A DNA stretch of 64,000 bases from Methanofollis tationis. Its GTDB lineage: Archaea > Halobacteriota > Methanomicrobia > Methanomicrobiales > Methanofollaceae. The DNA is taken from contig NZ_JABXWR010000001.1 of NCBI RefSeq assembly GCF_013377755.1, positions 1,251,104 through 1,315,103 on the forward strand, given 5' to 3'. A model generated the notes under the pieces. That model was not told the origin of the DNA. It did not search any database and saw only the letters and a program-made list of their open reading frames with translations. Positions 9,318 to 40,416 of the stretch are shown here, in pieces; the stretch's first letter is position 1; every line of letters starts with the position of its first letter. Position numbers and translations under genes: made by a program.

Positions 9318-10730
9318 TCAGGATCCGGGAGTCAGAAAATCGACGATCTCGGTCTCAAGGCTCTGAAGGTCAAGGACGACCGCCTGCGCGGGTGTCGGCA
9401 CGGTGTTCATCTGTTTCTGGAATGCGGTCTGAGACTGCCAGGTCCCGGCATTGATCATCAGCACGCCCCGGTAGCGTTTGATCCCGCTGATATGGACGTG
9501 GCCGGTGAAGAGCACCTCCGGGACCGGGTCGATGATGAGCGGGTCCTTTTTTCCCGGTGCGATCGGGGTGCGCATCCCGAATATCGGGGCGAGGTGCCGG
9601 CGTTTCAGCATCTCCTCCATGATCTCCGCGGGGCGGTTGTATGAGGCGCCCGGGATCGTCCCGATCATGTCGTCGAACGAACGCCCGTGGTAGATGAGCA
9701 CCCGCACGCCCTGCAGGGAGACGAGCGCCGGGTTCTCGACCCACACACAGTTTGCCGGGTAGCCCGTCCTGAACGCCGGCGGGATCGCAGGCTGCGGTTC
9801 GGCGCCCCTGACCACGTCGTGGTTGCCCGGCGAGATGACGATCGTCAGCCGCTCCGGGAGGGCCGCGAGCATCTCCCCGAGCGCCTGGTACTGCTGGTAA
9901 ATATTCTTGATCACGAGCTCTTTTTCCTGGCCCGGGTAGATCCCGATCCCGTCCACGAGGTCGCCGGCGATGACCAGGTAGCCGATATCCTCCCGGCCTG
10001 AGATCCAGTCGGCGAAGCGGTGCCATTCGTCCTCGAGGAAGGTGTCTGAGCCGACGTGGATATCCGAGATCAGCACCGCCCGGCCCGGACGCTCTGAGCG
10101 GTACGGAGCGTTCGAGAGCGGGATGTCGGGGCGGACCAGCGTGTTGGCGAAAAAGATGTTGCCGTCCTGCGAGAGTTTGCCCCGCACGCCGATCACCTCG
10201 TCGGGCAGGATCTTCTCGGCCTCGGCAAAACCGTCCCTGGACTTGTTGAAGAGCACCCGCATCGTGCCCGTGGGGTCCTCCACCTCGACCATCTTATTGC
10301 CGTTGGCCGTACTCCGCACGTTCGAGACCATGCCGATGAACGAGACCTCCTCCTCCTGGTAGCGTCCGGTCCGGGCCAGCGCCTCGATCGGGACCGGCTG
10401 GATCCGCCCCCGCATGAAGGTGGAGAGGCGGGTGAAACGGTTGCGGAAATAGGTGATGTACTCCTCGAAGTCCCTGATGCTCTCGGCCGAGTTCTCCATG
10501 CCGGCGAGGACCTCGCAGACCGGGTCTGCGAGAAAACGGGTGCCGTCCCTCACCTTCTTGAGGGCGGGAATGCACTCGGGCGAGACGACGACGGTGCCCT
10601 CGGGCGTCCCGGCGATGATCCGGTCGATGAGGCCGGGGTCGTCCTGCTCCTGTATGTAGGCCACCACCTCGGGCGAGACGAACAGGCTGGTGGCAAGGAA
10701 CCGTGAGACGATCTCATCCTCGCAGAGCAT
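9318..10730 (-). CDS. polB: DNA polymerase D small subunit (DP1, exonuclease)
   Basis: Small subunit of the euryarchaeal replicative polymerase D, with 3'-5' exonuclease activity. The 470 residues hold an N-terminal helical region, an OB fold (about 130-215, FIGMVSNVRSTANGNKMVEVED) and a calcineurin-like phosphoesterase domain. The metal-binding motifs are in order: DIHVGSDTF, GDLVDG, SPGNHD, YHGRSFDD and TGHVHISG. All catalytic residues are present, so proofreading should be intact. The large subunit gene is not in the window. It is divergent from the DtxR-type gene, and about 100 bases separate them. polB is the usual archaeal symbol for this subunit. Confidence 0.95.
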   Translation of the reverse strand: MLCEDEIVSRFLATSLFVSPEVVAYIQEQDDPGLIDRIIAGTPEGTVVVSPECIPALKKVRDGTRFLADPVCEVLAGMENSAESIRDFEEYITYFRNRFTRLSTFMRGRIQPVPIEALARTGRYQEEEVSFIGMVSNVRSTANGNKMVEVEDPTGTMRVLFNKSRDGFAEAEKILPDEVIGVRGKLSQDGNIFFANTLVRPDIPLSNAPYRSERPGRAVLISDIHVGSDTFLEDEWHRFADWISGREDIGYLVIAGDLVDGIGIYPGQEKELVIKNIYQQYQALGEMLAALPERLTIVISPGNHDVVRGAEPQPAIPPAFRTGYPANCVWVENPALVSLQGVRVLIYHGRSFDDMIGTIPGASYNRPAEIMEEMLKRRHLAPIFGMRTPIAPGKKDPLIIDPVPEVLFTGHVHISGIKRYRGVLMINAGTWQSQTAFQKQMNTVPTPAQAVVLDLQSLETEIVDFLTPGS

Positions 10731-10792
10731 TGTGATCAGGTTGGCGGTCGAGCCTCATGATCCTTGCGGATGGGGCCGCGAGGTTTGGGGTG

Positions 10793-10830
10793 GGGGAAAA
10801 TTTAACTCTCTGGCCGGCGCACTACGGCGC
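10793..10830 (+). promoter_or_regulatory. Promoter of the DtxR-type regulator
   Basis: The AT-rich stretch gaaaatttaac (10797-10807) sits about 28 bases before ATG 10831, the spacing for a leaderless archaeal transcript. It supports the start at 10831 instead of the longer frame from 10690, which would overlap the polB promoter region. Confidence 0.5.
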
Positions 10831-11262
10831 ATGGAGGAGATCAGCGGTTTCGAACTCCCTGGCCGGAAGGCCGAATACCTGAAGATCATCGGCATCATGG
10901 GTGGGTGCGCCCGGACAAACGAGATCGCGCGGAGGGTCGGCGTCGCCCCCTCGACGGCCACGAAGATGCTTCTCGCCCTTGCAGATGAAGGGTATCTGGA
11001 GCATACGCCCTATCACGGCGTCTCCCTCACCGCGCAGGGGGAGCGATACGCCCGTTTCCTGGTCCGCCGCCACCGTCTGCTCTCTCTCGCCCTGAGCCAG
11101 TTCGGGCTGACGCCCGCGGAGGCGTGCAGGGAGGCGAACATGCTGGAAGGGCGGGTCTCAAAGGACCTCGTCGACCGGATCTGCGCATCCCTCGGGCACC
11201 CGGTCCAGAGCGTCTGCGGCCCGATCGAGCACGATCTCGCCTGTTGCCCCGATGCCGGTTGA
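10831..11262 (+). CDS. DtxR/MntR-family metal-dependent regulator
   Basis: A 143-residue transcription factor. A winged helix-turn-helix (about 10-70: EYLKIIGIMGG...TNEIARRVGVAPSTATKMLLALADEGYLE) is followed by the dimerisation and metal-binding helices (LVRRHRLLSLAL, EACREANMLEGRVSKDLVDRIC). The His and Cys ligand positions are visible. The His that usually follows Glu in the family's EH pair seems to be Gly (LEGRVS), so metal specificity may differ. It stands immediately upstream of a Zn/Mn-type ABC transporter and probably represses it when metal is plentiful. There is a perfect inverted repeat between the two genes. Confidence 0.88.
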   Translation: MEEISGFELPGRKAEYLKIIGIMGGCARTNEIARRVGVAPSTATKMLLALADEGYLEHTPYHGVSLTAQGERYARFLVRRHRLLSLALSQFGLTPAEACREANMLEGRVSKDLVDRICASLGHPVQSVCGPIEHDLACCPDAG

Positions 11263-11297
11263 TTATGGGCTCAAAAACCTATTTACGGGTTGCAGGG

Positions 11298-11322
11298 ATA
11301 ATTTAGATACGTACCAAATTAT
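11298..11322 (+). promoter_or_regulatory. Candidate metal-regulator operator
   Basis: A perfect inverted repeat, ataattt-N11-aaattat, lies 14 bases before the transporter start at 11336 and downstream of a TATA-like ctatttac (11279-11286). Its 25-bp span and AT-rich arms suit a DtxR/MntR dimer. The regulator gene ends 36 bases upstream. Bound protein here would block transcription start or elongation. Function is inferred from symmetry and position. Confidence 0.55.
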
Positions 11323-11335
11323 GGGTGTGGAGAAG

Positions 11336-12208
11336 ATGGAAACGGCGCAATGGCTGTTGTCTGCGATCGGTGTGCTTTTTCTTCTGGTGACGGCGGGCTG
11401 CCTCGGTGACGGCGCGGCCCCGGCCGAAGACGGTCCGATCCCGGTCGCCGTGACGATCCCCCCCCAGGCCGAATTTGTCAGGGCAATCGGGGGGGAGCGG
11501 GTGGACGTGATGGTCCTCGTCCCGCCCGGCGCAAACCCGCATACCTACGAGCTGACGCCCGGGCAGATGGCGGCCCTCGGAGAGGTGCGGATGTATGCCG
11601 CCGTCGGTTCCGGCATCGAGTTCGAGCGCGCCTGGATGGCGAAGATCGCCGGGGTAAACCCGGGGATGCATGTCGTCAACTGCTCGGAGGGCCTGACCTT
11701 CCTCTCCGGCGACGAGGAGGAGGGCGGCACAGACCCGCACGTATGGCTCTCGGTGCGAAACGCCGCGGTGATGGTCGAGAATATCTGCGCCGGTCTGGTG
11801 GCGATCGATCCGGCCGACGCCGCCTATTTCGAGGCGAACCGCGATGGATACCTCGACGAACTGCGGGCCCTCGACACCGGGATCGCCGCCTCTCTCGCGG
11901 GCCGCGAGGGCGAGGCGATCATGGTCTACCACCCGTCCTGGGCATATTTCGCGCGGGACTACGGGCTTGTCCAGATTCCGATCGAGGACGAGGGAAAAGA
12001 GCCCGGCCCGCAGGGGATCGAACGGCTGATCGTCCAGGCAACGGCGGAGAATATCACCGTCGTCTTTGCCTCGCCCGAGTACTCCACGAAAAGCGCCCGG
12101 GTGATCGCCGATGCGATCGGCGGCCGGGTCGCCCTGGTGAGCCCGCTTGAAGAGAACTATACGGCGAACATGAGGAACGTCGCCGCGGCGTTCGGCGGGG
12201 CGGTATGA
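11336..12208 (+). CDS. znuA: Metal (Zn/Mn) ABC transporter substrate-binding lipoprotein
   Basis: Cluster A-I binding protein that presents Zn2+ or Mn2+ to the ZnuBC-like permease. From ATG 11336 there are 290 residues: a signal helix with lipobox LVTAGC (Cys near 20), then the two-lobed fold. Ligand candidates are His in NPHTYELTPGQ (about 66), His in TDPHVWLSVRNA (about 132), His in MVYHPSWAYFARDYG (about 197) and the acidic ASPEYSTKSAR (about 250). It has no long His-rich loop, which leaves Zn versus Mn open. A start at 11321 or earlier is possible, but ggtgtggag is a ribosome site for 11336. It overlaps the ATPase gene by 4 bases. Confidence 0.9.
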   Translation: METAQWLLSAIGVLFLLVTAGCLGDGAAPAEDGPIPVAVTIPPQAEFVRAIGGERVDVMVLVPPGANPHTYELTPGQMAALGEVRMYAAVGSGIEFERAWMAKIAGVNPGMHVVNCSEGLTFLSGDEEEGGTDPHVWLSVRNAAVMVENICAGLVAIDPADAAYFEANRDGYLDELRALDTGIAASLAGREGEAIMVYHPSWAYFARDYGLVQIPIEDEGKEPGPQGIERLIVQATAENITVVFASPEYSTKSARVIADAIGGRVALVSPLEENYTANMRNVAAAFGGAV

Positions 12209-12981
12209 GCGGGGACCCGGTCATCGACGTCAGGGGCGTCTCGGTGACCCTGGGCGGCCGTCCGGTGCTGGAGGACGTCGATTTCAGGGTCGAAAAAGGC
12301 GATTTTTATGCGGTCATCGGCCCGAACGGGGGCGGGAAGAGCACCCTTTTGAAGGTGATCCTGGGGTTGATCCGCCCGTCCGCAGGGACGGTCAGGGTGC
12401 TGGGCGGGACGCCCGTCGAGCGGCGCCACCTCCTCGGCTATGTCCCGCAGTACCGCACCTTCGACTTCTCGTACCCGGTCACCGTGGGCGAGATGGTGCT
12501 TTCCGGCAGGCTCGGGCACATCAGGAATTTTCCCCGCCGCTACGGGCAGGAAGACCGCGCTGCTGCGGACCGGGCGATGGCCACGATGGGGATCGGCGAC
12601 CTCGCGGCCCAGGAGATCGGCGCTCTTTCCGGGGGGCAGCAGCAGCGGGCGATCATCGCCCGCGCCCTGGTGGGCGATCCTGAGGTGCTGATCCTGGACG
12701 AGCCCACCGTCTATGTCGACGCTCCGACCGGCGAGCACTTCCTGGACCTGCTTGTCGGGCTCAGGGAAGAGATGACCGTCCTGCTGGTCACCCACGACGT
12801 CGGCGTCCTCTCCTCGCGCGTGACAAAGATCGCCTGCTTGAACCGGCGGATATTCACCCACGATACGGCCGAAATAACCGGCGACATGCTTAAAGGGGCA
12901 TACGGCTGCCCGGTGGACCTGATCGCCCACGGTCTTCCCCACCGCGTCGTGGGAGAGCACGAAGGGGAGGAGCGGCCGTGA
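12205..12981 (+). CDS. znuC: Metal ABC transporter ATP-binding protein
   Basis: Energises metal uptake on the cytoplasmic face. The 258 residues contain Walker A GPNGGGKST (about 37-45), the Q loop in YVPQYRTFDF, the ABC signature LSGGQQQR (about 145), Walker B VLILDEPT and the H-loop LLVTHDVG. The sequence resembles the ZnuC/MntB group. Start and stop overlap its neighbours by 4 bases each (ATGA-type), so the three transporter genes form one operon behind the DtxR-type gene. Confidence 0.93.
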   Translation: MSGDPVIDVRGVSVTLGGRPVLEDVDFRVEKGDFYAVIGPNGGGKSTLLKVILGLIRPSAGTVRVLGGTPVERRHLLGYVPQYRTFDFSYPVTVGEMVLSGRLGHIRNFPRRYGQEDRAAADRAMATMGIGDLAAQEIGALSGGQQQRAIIARALVGDPEVLILDEPTVYVDAPTGEHFLDLLVGLREEMTVLLVTHDVGVLSSRVTKIACLNRRIFTHDTAEITGDMLKGAYGCPVDLIAHGLPHRVVGEHEGEERP

Positions 12982-13787
12982 TCTCTGTATTCGCCTATGA
13001 GTTTTTCAGAAACGCCCTGATTGCCGGGCTGCTTGCGAGCGTCGCCTGCGGGGTGATCGGCACCTACGTGGTGGTAAGAAAGATGGTCTCCCTCTCGGGC
13101 GGGGTTTCGCATGCCGCCTTCGGCGGGATCGGGCTCGGCTATTATCTCGGCCTCGACCCGATCCTCTCGGCGACCGTCTTCACCGTCGCCGTCGCCCTCG
13201 GCATGGGCGAACTCTCCCTGCGGCAGCGGCAGAACCTCGACACGATCATCGGGGCGGTCTGGGCCGCGGGGATGGCGCTCGGCATCCTCTTTGTCTACCT
13301 CACGCCCGGCTTCGCGCCCGATCTCTTCGGCTATCTCTTCGGGAACATCCTGCTCGTGCCGCGGGAAGACCTCGTCCTGATGGGCGCCCTCGTCGCCGTG
13401 ATCCTCATCGTGGTCGCCCTCTTCTTCAGGGACCTCTTTGCGGTCACCTTTGACGAGGAGTACGCGCGGGTGATGAACCTCCCGGTGGAGCGGATCTCGC
13501 TCCTGCTCCTGGTGCTCGTCGCCCTGACCGTGGTGATGCTCATCCAGGTCGTCGGGATCATCCTGGTGATCGCCCTGCTGACGATCCCGGCGGCGATCGC
13601 GCGGGAGTTCTCCTCCCGCCTGGGGCTGATGATGGCCCTCGCGGTCGCCCTCGGGGCGGTCTTCACCGTGAGCGGGATCGTCCTCTCCTACCTCTTCAAT
13701 GTCCCGTCCGGGGCGACAATCATCCTGGTCGCCGCCGGCGTCTACGGGGCGGTGATGGGGGTGCGGACGCTCTTTCCCCGGGATTGA
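12978..13787 (+). CDS. znuB: Metal ABC transporter permease (ABC-3 family)
   Basis: Membrane subunit of the Zn/Mn importer, 269 residues with about eight hydrophobic helices. Family features are VVVRKMVSLSGGVSHAAFGGIGLGYYLG near residues 33-60 (the coupling region SHAAFGG) and the GIILVIALLTIPAAIARE segment near 193. It starts at GTG 12978, inside the ATPase stop codon region. Nothing co-directional follows; the next gene is the convergent, interrupted DUF3267 gene, and a run of T residues (13797-13805) lies just after its stop. Confidence 0.92.
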   Translation: MISVFAYEFFRNALIAGLLASVACGVIGTYVVVRKMVSLSGGVSHAAFGGIGLGYYLGLDPILSATVFTVAVALGMGELSLRQRQNLDTIIGAVWAAGMALGILFVYLTPGFAPDLFGYLFGNILLVPREDLVLMGALVAVILIVVALFFRDLFAVTFDEEYARVMNLPVERISLLLLVLVALTVVMLIQVVGIILVIALLTIPAAIAREFSSRLGLMMALAVALGAVFTVSGIVLSYLFNVPSGATIILVAAGVYGAVMGVRTLFPRD

Positions 13788-35489: not shown

Positions 35490-35594
35490 GGACTTTTCAC
35501 CAGGGGTTCCATTGTTCGAAGCACCATATGAGCGTTGCGCCCGTCCCCGGCAGGCACGGTCGGTTTTTTCTGTTTCAGGGACGATTGTTCTCTC

Positions 35595-36425
35595 ATGGAT
35601 GCCGGGATCGACTGGAACAGGGTGTGGCGGGTGCGGCTGGCGGCGCACCGGTCGAGCCCGGGCTTCGTGAGCGGCGGCGCACTCTGGAAGGAGAAAGAGA
35701 CCGCCCGCCGCTATGACCGGGGCGTCGGAGAGAGCGATCGGGTGGAGCAGTGCCTGGCCGCCCTCCCCCTCGGGCCGGAACACGCGGTGCTCGATATCGG
35801 CGCCGGGCCAGGCACCCTCACCCTCCCGATCGCACGGCTGGTGCGGCGGGTCGATGCCGTCGAGCCGGCCGCCGGGATGGCGGCGGTGCTGCGGGAGCGG
35901 GCGGCTGAGGCGGGGCTTGAAAATATCAGGGTCGTGGAGGGGCGGTGGGAGGACCCCGGCCTGGACCTCGATCCCCCGTACGACGTGGTCATCTCCTCCT
36001 TCTCGCTTGCGATGCCCGATCTCGCCGCCGCCCTCGAAAAGATGGAGGCGGTCGCCGCGGGGTCGGTGCATATCTTCTGGCATGCGGGGACGCCGGCATG
36101 GGAGCGGCGGTATATGGCCCTCTGGCCGGCCCTCCACGGCGCCCGGTACCGTCCGGTGCCGAAGGCCTGGGTGGTCTTCCGCCTCCTTGAGGAGACGGGG
36201 CGCCGTCCCGAGATCACGATGCACGCCTTCACCGAAGAACGGCGCTTTTCGAGTCTGGAGGATGCCCTCTCGTATTATGCGCCGCGGTTCTCGGCGGTGG
36301 ACGAGCGGCAGCGGCAGGTCCTTGCAAACGCCCTTGAGGGCTGGCTTGAATGCGGGGAAGAGGGGCCTGTCATGCGGGGCCGGTCCAGGTTCGCCCATAT
36401 CTGGTGGAAAAAAGAAGAGCGTTAA
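35595..36425 (+). CDS. SAM-dependent methyltransferase (class I)
   Basis: 276 residues from ATG 35595 (the frame opens at 35535). The SAM site is VLDIGAGPGTLTLPIARLV (about 65-83), the acidic residue at the end of strand 2 is VDAVEPAAGM (about 87-96), and PYDVVISSFSLAMPDL (about 128-143) is the catalytic-face loop. The N-terminal WNRVWRVRLAAHR...WKEKETARRYD is common in small-molecule methyltransferases of methanogens. The substrate is unknown. Its stop overlaps that of the convergent binding-protein gene by 4 bases. Confidence 0.87.
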   Translation: MDAGIDWNRVWRVRLAAHRSSPGFVSGGALWKEKETARRYDRGVGESDRVEQCLAALPLGPEHAVLDIGAGPGTLTLPIARLVRRVDAVEPAAGMAAVLRERAAEAGLENIRVVEGRWEDPGLDLDPPYDVVISSFSLAMPDLAAALEKMEAVAAGSVHIFWHAGTPAWERRYMALWPALHGARYRPVPKAWVVFRLLEETGRRPEITMHAFTEERRFSSLEDALSYYAPRFSAVDERQRQVLANALEGWLECGEEGPVMRGRSRFAHIWWKKEER

Positions 36426-37975
36426 TGCCACTTCAGCCCCGCGGCGAGAACGAGCGCCCCGAGGGCGAGGGCGATCGGCAGGGGGGCGGGCTGCGGGGTG
36501 GTTGCCTCTGCTCCGGTTTTCGCCGGGGTGGCGGCGGGGGTGTACGATGTCGCTGTGGTCGTTTTTGCAACATTCACCGTTTCCGTGGCATCAGTCGTCG
36601 GCGTGACGGTCTGCTGTGTGGTTTCGATCTCGGCGGCGACGGCCGCTCCTGCCGCGTACGTGATCGCAAACAGCGAAAAACCGGTGCAGAAGGCCCGGTA
36701 ATGGTGAGTTCCGTCATCGTCTGTCCCGAGGTACTCAGTCGTCAGCCGCTCCCATGCGCCGTTATGCCAGTGCAGAAGGGCGATGTCCAGAGGGCCGGCG
36801 CCCTGCGCCGTCATCCATGAGTTCCCGACGGTAAACTCGATCGTGGCATTGCATCCTCCACTCAGGGCCGGCGTGGGGGAGATGTCGAGGTAGTGATAGG
36901 TGGCGTTCTCCGGCGCCGTCGTCCCGCCCGGCAAATAAGCGAACACCTGGACATTCATCACGACCGATGCCATGTCCTCCTCCGGGACCAGGACGATCCG
37001 GCTGAGAACGCCGTTTTCGAAGGAGAACTCCGTCTCTTCTCCGGCAGAAAGGCTGGTGGCGAGGCTTGCAGGGCTGTCTTCCCGGTCTCCGCCGCCGGTG
37101 TTCGGGCTGGCCATGACGATCTCCTTGTTGTGCTCGAGCACGCCCGGTATCGACTCCACGCCAGGGAGGGATTTCGGGAAGTTGGTGAAGATAACGCGGT
37201 CGGCGGCAATCCCCCTGTCATGGAGCGCCTCCTCGATCCCCTTCGCGAGCTCGCCCGACTGCATGTTCTCGATGACATATTTCACGTTCCGGTATTTTTC
37301 GGGGTTTGCATTGATGTCGTCGACGATCTTTGCCGGGGTGAACTGTCCGCCCATATAGAACTCAGGGCCGAAGATGCTGACGACGTTGAGGCCAAGCCAT
37401 GCCTCGGCGGCCTCGCGCTGCCAGACCATCACCACGACGTCCTGCCCTTCGACCCGCGCCCGATCGCCCCCGGTGATGTCTGCGGCATCGATCGTGTCGC
37501 AGTAGGCGTTGTATCTCGCCTCATACGAAGTCGTATTGGTCGGATCGGCTGCGACCAGAATATCCCTGATATCTTCGGCAAGCACCTTCGCCTTCTCCGG
37601 GGTGTTCCAGTCTGCGGCCGCAGGCACGGTCCAGGTGACGGTGCCATAGCCGTTCGCCTGCATGAAGTCCTGTATGGCCGGCATGACGATCGCCTTGTCC
37701 ATCGAAGAGTCGTAGGCCAGGAAAAGGTCTGCAGATGCGATGAAGTCCCTGTTCATCTGGATGCGTGCGTCGATGACATCGCCCTGCATATGCGGGCAGA
37801 TGCTTGGGTCTGCGACATAGATCACCTCGACGTGCTCGCCGCCGATCGCCTGCGCCGGGTCCCAGAGCACGCTCGTCGTGGCGACCACGTCGAGGGCCGC
37901 TACGGGTGTGACGCTGCAGAAACAGAGGATGAAAAGCGAGAGTGCGATCCCGCATATGGTACTTAATTTGAGCAT
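36422..37975 (-). CDS. Metal-type ABC binding protein fused to PGF-pre-PGF domain, C-terminally anchored
   Basis: 517 residues in four parts. A signal peptide (about 1-27) is followed by a cluster A-I (Zn/Mn-type) binding domain (about 28-300, VVATTSVLWDPAQAIGGEHVEVIYVADPSICPHMQGD, ... FTNFPKSLPGVESIPGVLEHN). Next comes a PGF-pre-PGF-type beta domain (about 310-455, ending CTGFSLFAITY), and last a Thr-rich stalk with a C-terminal helix (PLPIALALGALVLAAGLKWH). The binding domain would thus be tethered at its C-terminus, not by an N-terminal lipid. The only obvious metal ligand is Cys-Pro-His near 59; the usual later His residues are not evident, so the ligand may not be zinc. It is the last gene of a transporter locus. 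Confidence 0.82.
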   Translation of the reverse strand: MLKLSTICGIALSLFILCFCSVTPVAALDVVATTSVLWDPAQAIGGEHVEVIYVADPSICPHMQGDVIDARIQMNRDFIASADLFLAYDSSMDKAIVMPAIQDFMQANGYGTVTWTVPAAADWNTPEKAKVLAEDIRDILVAADPTNTTSYEARYNAYCDTIDAADITGGDRARVEGQDVVVMVWQREAAEAWLGLNVVSIFGPEFYMGGQFTPAKIVDDINANPEKYRNVKYVIENMQSGELAKGIEEALHDRGIAADRVIFTNFPKSLPGVESIPGVLEHNKEIVMASPNTGGGDREDSPASLATSLSAGEETEFSFENGVLSRIVLVPEEDMASVVMNVQVFAYLPGGTTAPENATYHYLDISPTPALSGGCNATIEFTVGNSWMTAQGAGPLDIALLHWHNGAWERLTTEYLGTDDDGTHHYRAFCTGFSLFAITYAAGAAVAAEIETTQQTVTPTTDATETVNVAKTTTATSYTPAATPAKTGAEATTPQPAPLPIALALGALVLAAGLKWH

Positions 37976-37995
37976 GAGCCTACCTTAGTGTTAAA

Positions 37996-38018
37996 AAATT
38001 AATAAATTTTACTAATTG
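37996..38018 (-). promoter_or_regulatory. Palindromic promoter element of the binding-protein gene
   Basis: An inverted repeat (aaattaataaa-t-tttactaattg on the + strand; 9 of 11 arm positions pair) lies 21-43 bases before the start at 37975. It contains TTAATA-aatt-TTACTA (37999-38014), which recurs with a 3-base spacer before the fmdE-like gene. It overlaps the likely TATA box. It is probably the operator of a shared regulator; the gene also needs its own promoter because 76 bases separate it from the permease. Confidence 0.5.
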
Positions 38019-38051
38019 ATGTGATAGAATTTTGCATCTATGATCTCTGGC

Positions 38052-38879
38052 TCAGGCCCCCTTCGGCACCCGCCGCTTCGGCGATATCAGCACCGCCACC
38101 AGGAAGAGGGCGCTGAAGGCGACCGCCGTGAGGGGGCCGACCGGAAGGGAATACTGGAGCCCGATCCACGCCCCGGCCACGCTGACACTCCCGGCGATGA
38201 GCGGGGCTGAGAGGAAGAGGCCGCGCACCGTGGTGCAGAACTGGTAGGCGATCGCTGCCGGGGTGACAAGCCAGACATAGAGAAGGAGCCCGCCGATGAT
38301 GTTGAGGGAGAGCGAGACCGAGATGGCGATCATGAAGAGGAGGGCGTAATAGATGGGCCTGACCCTGATCCCGGCGGCCTCGGCGATCTTCCGGTTAAAG
38401 ATGATCGCCGTGATCTCCTTTGAAAAAACCGCCACAAACACGATGGCGAGAACGGAGATGACGGCAAGGGCGTAGATCTCCTCCCGGTAGAGGGAGATGA
38501 CGTTGCCGAAGAGCAGGGCGCTCGCGTTGACCGCAGTGCCCAGGTACTGCATGTACGAGACGAAGAAAATGGCGATCGCCATCATCATCCCGAAGAGAAT
38601 GCCCAGGATCGTGTCGGTGGACATCCGCGCCTTCTCGGAGAGCGGACCGATTATGGTGGCGATGAGCAGACTTGCCAGGATCGCCGCCATCGTCCCGCCG
38701 ACGCCGAAGAAGATCCCGACCGACGCCCCCGCGAATGCGGCATGGGTCATGGTGAACCCGATGGACGAGATGCCCATCTGCGTGATGATCACGCCGAGAA
38801 TGCTGCAGGCGATCGAGGCGAAGAGCATCGCCTCCACCGCATGGCAGATGATATTGTTCTGGATGAGGAATTCAAGCAT
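38052..38879 (-). CDS. Metal ABC transporter permease (ABC-3 family)
   Basis: 275 residues with about eight helices; FASIACSILGVIITQMGISSIGFTMTHAAFAGASVGIFFG (about 21-59) contains the SxTHAAFAG coupling segment. LLYVWLVTPAAIAYQF (about 204-219) corresponds to the conserved TIPAA region of ZnuB-type permeases. Overlaps the ATPase gene by 8 bases. Clearly distinct in sequence from the permease at 13.0 kb, so the two systems probably carry different cargo. Confidence 0.9.
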   Translation of the reverse strand: MLEFLIQNNIICHAVEAMLFASIACSILGVIITQMGISSIGFTMTHAAFAGASVGIFFGVGGTMAAILASLLIATIIGPLSEKARMSTDTILGILFGMMMAIAIFFVSYMQYLGTAVNASALLFGNVISLYREEIYALAVISVLAIVFVAVFSKEITAIIFNRKIAEAAGIRVRPIYYALLFMIAISVSLSLNIIGGLLLYVWLVTPAAIAYQFCTTVRGLFLSAPLIAGSVSVAGAWIGLQYSLPVGPLTAVAFSALFLVAVLISPKRRVPKGA

Positions 38880-39612
38880 GGACGGCCCCCGGCAGGCGCC
38901 TGATCCGCTCCTCCACCTCGTCCCCGCGGCAGTGGGCGTCCATGCTGATCCTTCCCTCGTTCATCGCCAGGATTCTGATATCATGCCCGGGAAGGGCGTC
39001 GAAGGCGTGGGAGACGATGACCACCGTGCACCCGGCCTCCGCGATGCTGGTGAGGATCTCGCCGACAAAGGAGCGGGCGAAAAGATCGAGGTTCGAAAAG
39101 GGTTCGTCCAGGAGGAGGATCTCGGGTTTTTTTGCGAGGTTCTGGGCGATGAGCACCTTCTGCTGCTGTCCCCCGGATAACTTGCCGATCGGTCGGTCGA
39201 CGAGGTCTTCGATGCCCAGGAGGTGCATCGCCTCTTCGGCGGCGCGATGGTCCTCCTCCCGGGGCTGCCGGCCATACCCCAGGAGGCCGTAGCGCCCCAT
39301 GATCACCACGTTCCCGACGGTGAAAGGGGCAAGGGGATCGAAGGCGAAGTTCTGGATCACGTAGCCCACCCGCTTTCTCACCTCGGTACCATGGGCCGCC
39401 ACATCGAGGCCGCAGACTGTCGCCTGTCCATTGGTGATCGGGAGCATGCCATTGATCGTCTCGAGCAGCGTCGTCTTGCCGGCACCGTTGGGCCCGCCCA
39501 CGACGACAAACTCCCCGGCCGCGATGGAAAACGAGATCCCCCTGATCACCGGCAGGTCAGAGCCCTCGTAAGCGGTGGAAACCCCGGAGAGTTCGATGGT
39601 GCCGGCGGTCAT
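38872..39612 (-). CDS. Metal ABC transporter ATP-binding protein
   Basis: 246 residues: Walker A GGPNGAGKTT (about 38-47), Q loop VIQNFAFDPL, signature LSGGQQQKV (about 142-150), Walker B ILLLDEPFSNLD (about 162-173), H-loop VIVSHAFDALPGHD. Start overlaps the stop of the fmdE-like gene (ATGA-type), showing translational coupling between the FmdE-like protein and the transporter. Confidence 0.92.
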   Translation of the reverse strand: MTAGTIELSGVSTAYEGSDLPVIRGISFSIAAGEFVVVGGPNGAGKTTLLETINGMLPITNGQATVCGLDVAAHGTEVRKRVGYVIQNFAFDPLAPFTVGNVVIMGRYGLLGYGRQPREEDHRAAEEAMHLLGIEDLVDRPIGKLSGGQQQKVLIAQNLAKKPEILLLDEPFSNLDLFARSFVGEILTSIAEAGCTVVIVSHAFDALPGHDIRILAMNEGRISMDAHCRGDEVEERIRRLPGAVHA

Positions 39613-40055
39613 GCCAGGCGCTCGACAGAGAAGAGATCGCTGTCCGGGAGGTAGTACATTTTTTCGGCGTACTCCTCGATCTGCCGTTCATAATCGTCGT
39701 TTTCCACGCGGGGGGGCAGGAAGAAGGGAGCCGGGACGACCCTGACGGTTTTGCCGTCGCTCTCGAACTCGCAGTAAACGTCGTCGCTCCTGATCAGTTC
39801 GATGTTCCGCTTGCCAAGGGTGCACCCGCTCCCGAGCTGCACGCCGTCGGCCAGGCATGACTGCGGCGGGATGGTGGTGCAGAAGACCCGTGCCTTGAGA
39901 GAAAAGGGGTCTTTGCAGATCTGCTCGCGTGCAAACCTCCCGATACGGTAGCCGAGCACGATGTACGGGCCGAGGTGGCTGTGGAATGCGGCGAGGTCTT
40001 CGACCGTGAAGGTGCGGTCGAGGTTCATATAGTGGCATGATGCTTGATGTTCCAT
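39609..40055 (-). CDS. FmdE-family protein linked to an ABC transporter
   Basis: 148 residues, the FmdE fold named for a protein of the molybdenum formylmethanofuran dehydrogenase operon. Family residues are FHSHLGPYIVLGYRIGRFARE (about 24-44), FCTTIPPQSCLADGVQLGSGCTLGKRNIEL (about 59-88). The Cys/His set (FHSHLGP, PQSCLADG, GSGCTLGK) is the expected metal- or cofactor-binding site. There is no C-terminal zinc finger, so this is the short form. As first gene of a transporter operon, it may bind or sense the imported cargo; no fmd/fwd genes are nearby. Confidence 0.88.
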   Translation of the reverse strand: MEHQASCHYMNLDRTFTVEDLAAFHSHLGPYIVLGYRIGRFAREQICKDPFSLKARVFCTTIPPQSCLADGVQLGSGCTLGKRNIELIRSDDVYCEFESDGKTVRVVPAPFFLPPRVENDDYERQIEEYAEKMYYLPDSDLFSVERLA

Positions 40056-40073
40056 AAAGCAAGATCAGCAATG

Positions 40074-40103
40074 ATGCTATAAAAACTTTTAATATTGTTA
40101 CTA
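40074..40103 (-). promoter_or_regulatory. Promoter of the fmdE-like transporter operon
   Basis: On the minus strand a TATA box (TTTTTATAGC, 40073-40083) lies about 23 bases before the ATG at 40055, predicting a leaderless transcript. Immediately upstream is TTAATA-ttg-TTACTA (40089-40103, + strand notation), nearly the same as the element before the binding-protein gene at 38.0 kb. The long AT-rich block continues to about 40135. Confidence 0.55.
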
Positions 40104-40146
40104 TGTGTGCTTTAAGGTAGATTTTTTAATGATTATCCGGGAAAAG

Positions 40147-40416
40147 TCATTTCCTCCCGTGCTGGCCCGGCGAAGTGACCGAAAGGGCCTCCCGTGCCCG
40201 CCCGACCGCCCTGGCAACGATGTCGTCCGGGACCTCCGCCACCCCGCAGGAGAACAGGCGCACCCATCCCTCTCCGGCGATCACGAGCCCGATCAGCTCA
40301 GCCGTGAGAAACAGTCCCGGTCCGGCGACGATCGTTTGCGTCCTCACGATCGGTACGATCGCCCGCCCGGCCGCGACCCGTGCCTCGCCTGCTTCGACGA
40401 CCGTCTCCTCCCTCAT
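40147..40416 (-). CDS. Small conserved hypothetical protein
   Basis: 89 residues from ATG 40416: MREETVVEAGEARVAAGRAIVP, a central hydrophobic stretch (GPGLFLTAELIGLVIAGEGWVRLFSCG, about 34-60) and a helical end. No known domain is recognised. It overlaps the DUF2953 gene by 4 bases and so belongs to the GerW-DUF2953 unit. The hydrophobic part is not long enough to be confident about a membrane segment. Confidence 0.6.
   Translation of the reverse strand: MREETVVEAGEARVAAGRAIVPIVRTQTIVAGPGLFLTAELIGLVIAGEGWVRLFSCGVAEVPDDIVARAVGRAREALSVTSPGQHGRK

Follow-up and report, generated by a model that had tools for sequence, protein, structure and literature searches.

The window is a stretch of 64,000 nucleotides from the 2.25 Mb genome of Methanofollis tationis. 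It contains a four-gene cassette for an FmdE-family protein, an ABC transporter ATPase, an ABC-3 family permease, and a substrate-binding protein (SBP) (Table 1). The stop codon of fmdE and the start codon of the ATPase gene share the letters ATGA (4-bp overlap), and the ATPase and permease genes overlap by 8 bp. These are the open reading frames and overlaps described in the sequence-only reading, and they form the pattern expected for translational coupling. The SBP gene is separated from the permease gene by 76 bp of AT-rich DNA and, for this reason, probably has its own promoter. The AT-rich region upstream of fmdE, likely the operon promoter, contains the element TTTATAGCA, which is common to several other Methanofollis genomes. 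The span originally proposed for the system, 36422–40103, ends in this upstream region; the fmdE gene begins at 40055. No riboswitch or other Rfam RNA was found at the cassette locus, and no upstream regulatory palindrome common to several genera was obvious by eye. The scan for bacterial-type promoters and terminators, which is unsuited to archaea, gave results barely over chance.

Table 1. Features of the cassette and its flanks, with positions in the window.
Feature	Position	Strand	Characteristics
MT2, class I SAM methyltransferase	35535..36425	+	convergent with the SBP gene, 4-bp 3' overlap
SBP gene	36422..37975	-	517 aa; ZnuA PF01297 57.7 bits (cut-off 29), TIGR04213 66.3 bits (cut-off 28)
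Thr-rich stalk and C-terminal hydrophobic anchor of SBP	36434..36640	-	sequence features
PGF-pre-PGF domain of SBP, residues 307–439	36659..37057	-	TIGR04213
Binding domain proper of SBP, residues 28–290	37106..37894	-	alignments, AlphaFold, Foldseek
AT-rich gap before the SBP gene	37976..38051	-	76 bp; sequence
ABC-3 family permease	38052..38879	-	275 aa; PF00950 161 bits
ABC transporter ATPase	38872..39612	-	246 aa; PF00005 108 bits
fmdE	39609..40055	-	FmdE-family protein, 148 aa; PF02663 67.9 bits (cut-off 22.9)
AT-rich region upstream of fmdE	40056..40150	-	contains the element named in the text

The SBP is composed of a signal peptide, a cluster A-I-like domain, a PGF-pre-PGF domain, a Thr-rich stalk (17 Thr in residues 440–500), and a C-terminal anchor (hydrophobic tail at residues 496–514). 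The TIGR04213 match and the sequence features thus bear out the fusion recognized earlier. A literal PGF tripeptide is absent. The fusion was confined to Methanofollis: among the other genera examined no SBP had it, nor did the SBP of one Methanofollis MAG; a short Pro/Thr tail with an anchor was present also in many homologues without the fusion. The PGF-pre-PGF domain does not belong to the conserved system; only Methanofollis has it, and not in every member. As most homologues are devoid of the domain, it was rejected as the ligand-binding part. Three Methanofollis SBPs contained two tandem binding domains and one PGF-pre-PGF domain (L034:5671-8034, L035:5205-7568, and L036:6936-9308).

AlphaFold modeled the binding domain with a pLDDT of 93.7, and the model matched YfeA, PsaA, AztC, and ZnuA in Foldseek with a probability of 1.00, E-values of 1e-12 to 1e-9, and TM of ~0.7. 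The model has the cluster A-I fold, in which a long helix joins two lobes. Proteins of this fold bind the metal through four ligands, namely His, His, His/Glu, and Asp, Glu or water (PMC4542158, PMC3851752). According to the alignment of homologues, the SBP keeps one of them, the invariant His62. The second position is Ala121, with no His in relatives, and its canonical archaeal counterpart is the DPHxW motif. At the third position, where canonical homologues have VxHP, the SBP has Gln186, and the fourth ligand, Asp280 of PsaA, is matched by the invariant Asn265 in FTN; motif and topology guided both assignments, because confidence in the alignment is low there. Canonical archaeal homologues, except one divergent member, retain the PH, DPH, and VxHP motifs. 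Trp115 and Trp193 did not vary among the aligned sequences on which the SBP model is based. Hence, the SBP does not have the four-ligand site of cluster A-I importers, as judged by motif at positions 3 and 4. The poor conservation of Zn ligands, noticed before in the single protein, was observed across 30–38 homologues, and with only His62 kept, the site indeed differs from the usual Zn/Mn site. Because most of the Zn/Mn-gripping residues are lost, the SBP probably imports something other than a bare Zn/Mn ion; the neutral residues in their place fit a ligand other than a bare dication.

The permease and its cognate ATPase are encoded in one operon, as in cluster A-I importers. The nearest named models for the ATPase were Zn/Mn-type ATPases, all under cut-off. 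The permeases of the FmdE type formed a deep clade, separate from and distant to the canonical ABC-3 permease, in a tree read without its support values. In the same tree, and with the same reservation as to support, families were mostly coherent with some apparent transfers, e.g., core Methanoculleus inside Methanolinea/Methanoregulaceae.

The cassette FmdE belongs to PF02663 both by score and by its FmdE core fold (AlphaFold pLDDT 90; best PDB match in Foldseek 2glz, E = 1.4e-7). It consists of the core domain only, and the C-terminal zinc finger is absent. The structure 2glz is an FmdE-like protein binding Zn/Ni at the site His15, His17, Cys19, and Cys55 (PMC2954224). Three of these four ligands are kept in the aligned cassette protein (His25, His27, and Cys67), and the Cys of the FHGHxC motif (Cys19 of 2glz) is Gly29. 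Additional conserved cysteines are Cys7, Cys59, and Cys78; Cys7 and Cys59, conserved in the subfamily, might stand in for the missing Cys. FmdE dimers have a depression that, according to the 2010 structural paper, can accommodate a fairly large ligand; the same paper left the function of PF02663 open (PMC2954224). In the second FmdE of the same genome, the zinc finger is present and the motif is intact; its gene is ~160 kb away from the nearest fwdC.

The search with the SBP revealed true matches to the binding domain in 46 of 150 Methanomicrobiales genomes; the other numerous matches covered the PGF-pre-PGF domain only. In the loci read, the same four genes occurred together, usually in the order FmdE-ATPase-permease-SBP. 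This order was kept across most Methanomicrobiales and Methanocella and varied in genus g16, in which the SBP comes first, and in Methanothrix. Scans of GTDB genomes and of 295 genomes of the phylum added Methanocella and Methanothrix/Methanotrichaceae as carriers, and every named strong match was a methanogen; these scans were pattern-based and may miss distant forms. In the 60-genome set, fmdE was located within 3 kb of all 25 FmdE-type ABC-3 permeases; some Methanothrix relatives had fmdE of a different subtype or on the opposite strand. The association of the four genes is not due to chance, as the operons recur in many genomes of the order. At least two Methanothrix-lineage operons contained a DUF169 (COG2043) gene between the permease and the SBP (L098:5021-5770 and L100:4462-5208); this protein, uncharacterized in Pfam, may take part in the same process as the importer. 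In genome G003, the flanking DNA is 93% identical, yet exactly the window segment ~36422–40163 is lacking, and genome G021 has an empty site at the cassette position too. The cassette is therefore a self-contained unit that is acquired or lost in one piece. No convincing repeats pointing to a mobile element were found around it.

That FmdE genes are linked to transporters is already known: Axelrod et al. reported in 2010 that most PF02663 genes have genes for metal-ion transporters next to them (PMC2954224). Our survey confirmed the association and generalized it to a conserved, cassette-like importer of methanogens, in which FmdE is a constant partner and the pocket departs from the canonical one. 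The proposal of a distinct, uncharacterized uptake system with FmdE as its conserved partner was upheld, and no experimental study of an FmdE-ABC-3 operon was found in the literature.

Among 123 proteins flanking 26 cassette loci, class I methyltransferases (14), Peripla_BP_2 proteins (10), ABC ATPases (9), and extra FmdE proteins (6) were the commonest families in a list of the 25 most frequent. The gene for a different methyltransferase, MT1, points away from fmdE, in divergent orientation, in most loci of Methanoculleus and Methanolinea. For both methyltransferases, the best NCBIfam model was the corrinoid-associated CpaM, far below its cut-off. Several FecCD (chelate-type) importer operons of the same order bear the same FmdE and MT2 partners. 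At least 54 of 133 FmdE genes and at least 26 of 104 MT2 genes had a FecCD or FmdE-type ABC-3 permease no more than 6 kb away, vs. ~1.4% for random placement, a rough estimate for a set of related genomes. In G009, a Methanofollis genome without the ABC-3 cassette, MT2 and a short FmdE were encoded in a FecCD-type operon together with several Peripla_BP_2 proteins (L153:5853-14001). MT2 is an associate rather than an integral part of the cassette, because it persists with 94% identity in G003. In one genus only (g16), genes related to B12 were found directly downstream of the permease: one is cobyric-acid-synthase-like (NF001989, above cut-off), and the other encodes a DUF71 protein whose ENGEYH signature marks the B12-salvage subgroup. 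In g16 (L053:9846-11368 and L052:10414-11933), the cobyric acid synthase lacks the C-terminal half and is accompanied by the DUF71 protein.

We examined whether the cassette occurs in place of other metal transporters. The ordinary Zn/Mn-type ABC-3 system noticed earlier elsewhere in the window lies at 10690–13787 together with an MntR-like regulator; the closest models for its SBP, ATPase, and permease were Mn-type MntC and Zn-type AztC, below their cut-offs. A canonical ABC-3 permease was present in 22 of 26 carriers (the exceptions were three g16 genomes and one MAG), and replacement of canonical Zn/Mn uptake was rejected on this ground. Replacement of Ni/Co uptake was likewise rejected, as NikM/CbiM-type systems (PF01891) were detected in all 60 genomes. 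A strong ModA-type protein (PF13531 match, E below 1e-40) was missing in 14 of 45 carriers vs. 11 of 55 non-carriers (P = 0.25); within Methanofollis, it was missing in 5 of 8 carriers vs. 0 of 4 non-carriers (P = 0.08). Each of the 100 genomes had at least one protein of the ModA-type family. Replacement of Mo/W uptake was also dismissed, with no pattern complementary to PF13531 proteins. Overall, the transporter survey singles out no metal and argues against a simple Zn, Ni/Co, or Mo/W replacement.

We propose that the cassette imports a metal chelate or metal cofactor and hands this cargo to FmdE, an explanation to which we give just under an even chance. The anchored SBP would catch the cargo outside the membrane, and the ABC-3 permease with the ATPase would move it in, as in a type II ABC importer. 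The FmdE-family dimer, encoded on the same message, would then take over the cargo via its His/Cys metal site. The cargo would most likely not be bare Zn2+ or Mn2+ but a metal bound to a small molecule, for instance in a metallophore complex or in a cofactor or precursor of the corrinoid or another tetrapyrrole type. SAM methyltransferases encoded close by may alter the chelator or cofactor, leading to metal release or reuse of the compound. The evidence that points this way comprises the constant FmdE, the cluster A-I fold with lost ligands, the methyltransferase, Peripla_BP_2, and FecCD neighbors, the B12 genes of g16, and the Zn/Ni site and depression of FmdE.

The sequence-only reading had suggested a specific tie to Mo/W formylmethanofuran dehydrogenase, and this part was not sustained. 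An importer of molybdate/tungstate, or of a Mo/W cofactor, serving this enzyme is possible but quite improbable and is not favored. It would agree with the FmdE name, with the restriction of the cassette to methanogens, with the Methanofollis pattern of ModA-type proteins, and with a neutral Asn/Gln pocket that would suit an oxyanion. However, that pattern is not significant over 100 genomes, all of which have a member of the ModA-type family. In the genome of the window, the nearest fwdC is ~410 kb from the cassette, with no fmd/fwd adjacency. The cassette lies 3–6 kb from fwdC in two genomes, namely within 5 kb in G079, where fwdA is also present, and about 5.4 kb away in G141 (by inspection), but in 24 of 25 carriers the 5 kb around the cassette contain no fwdC. 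The FmdE name itself is weak evidence for the Fmd pathway, because FmdE-family genes mostly stand beside metal transporters and not in fmd operons (PMC2954224). Between the cassette and the fwd genes of two Methanomicrobiaceae, we observed a FAD oxidoreductase-Rieske fusion, odd for a methanogen (L047:4251-5945 and L051:3594-5276).

A bare divalent metal (Ni, Co, Zn, Fe, or Mn) could instead be imported through a rebuilt coordination site, with FmdE as a metallochaperone. The invariant His62, the Zn/Ni held by FmdE-family structures (PMC2954224), and the best-matching solved structures, nearly all metal-ion-binding proteins of the cluster A-I fold, speak for such an importer. We nevertheless consider it rather unlikely: three of the four ligand positions are lost or neutralized, and it fills no obvious gap, because Ni/Co systems and, in most carriers, the canonical ABC-3 system are already there. 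Salvage of a corrinoid or another tetrapyrrole is a specific form of the chelate or cofactor class, and the g16 genes, the adjacent BtuF/FecCD-type clusters of several lineages, and CpaM as the best, sub-threshold model of both methyltransferases are in line with it. The B12 genes are limited to one genus, though, the cluster A-I cleft normally houses an ion, and the methyltransferase resemblance is generic, so this form is unlikely when taken by itself.

Several points count against the chelate or cofactor importer as a whole. An unusual site for a bare ion could be built from His62, the invariant Glu236, and Cys60 close to them; the third and fourth ligand positions are assigned with low alignment confidence; the B12 neighbors are limited to one genus; gene neighborhoods are indirect evidence; and MT2 may be unrelated to the cassette, since it is present where the cassette is absent. 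The operon structure, conservation, fold, ligand loss, and gene neighborhoods are established, while the direction of transport, the transfer to FmdE, the class of cargo, and the part played by the methyltransferases are inferred. We tentatively put forward a fuller model, more doubtful than not, of an importer specific to methanogens: the cluster A-I fold, known for bare metal ions, would have been converted to carry metal chelates or organometallic cofactors, FmdE would be their dedicated receiver inside the cell, and a SAM methyltransferase would contribute a further step. If true, PF02663 gains a role in metal-complex uptake common to ABC-3 and FecCD importers. The strictly conserved FmdE-importer pair with its altered pocket is a direct handle on FmdE protein function. 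Methanogens rely on cofactors with Ni, Co, W/Mo, and Fe, and they may scavenge metal complexes or corrinoids by this route, with an effect on methane production. Our data also suggest that the automatic label "zinc ABC transporter" is probably wrong for the FmdE-type branch.

Compared with known systems, the cassette resembles ZnuABC, MntABC/PsaABC, YfeABCD, and AztABC in the SBP fold, the ABC-3 permease, and the ATPase. It differs from these cluster A-I importers in the loss of all metal ligands except His62, the dedicated FmdE partner, the archaeal C-terminal anchor, and the separate deep clade of the permease. Its FmdE has the core fold of PF02663 proteins (FmdE of the fmd operon, 2glz, and 2gvi) and retains most of their His/Cys motif, but has no zinc finger, has Gly for the Cys of FHGHxC, and carries the extra conserved N-terminal Cys7 plus Cys59; unlike FmdE of the fmd operon, it is tied to an importer and not to fwd genes. 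With FecBCD/BtuFCD-type chelate importers of the same genomes, the cassette has in common the type II importer architecture and the FmdE and MT2 partners, whereas those importers use a FecCD permease and Peripla_BP_2 proteins in place of the ABC-3 permease and the ZnuA-like SBP.
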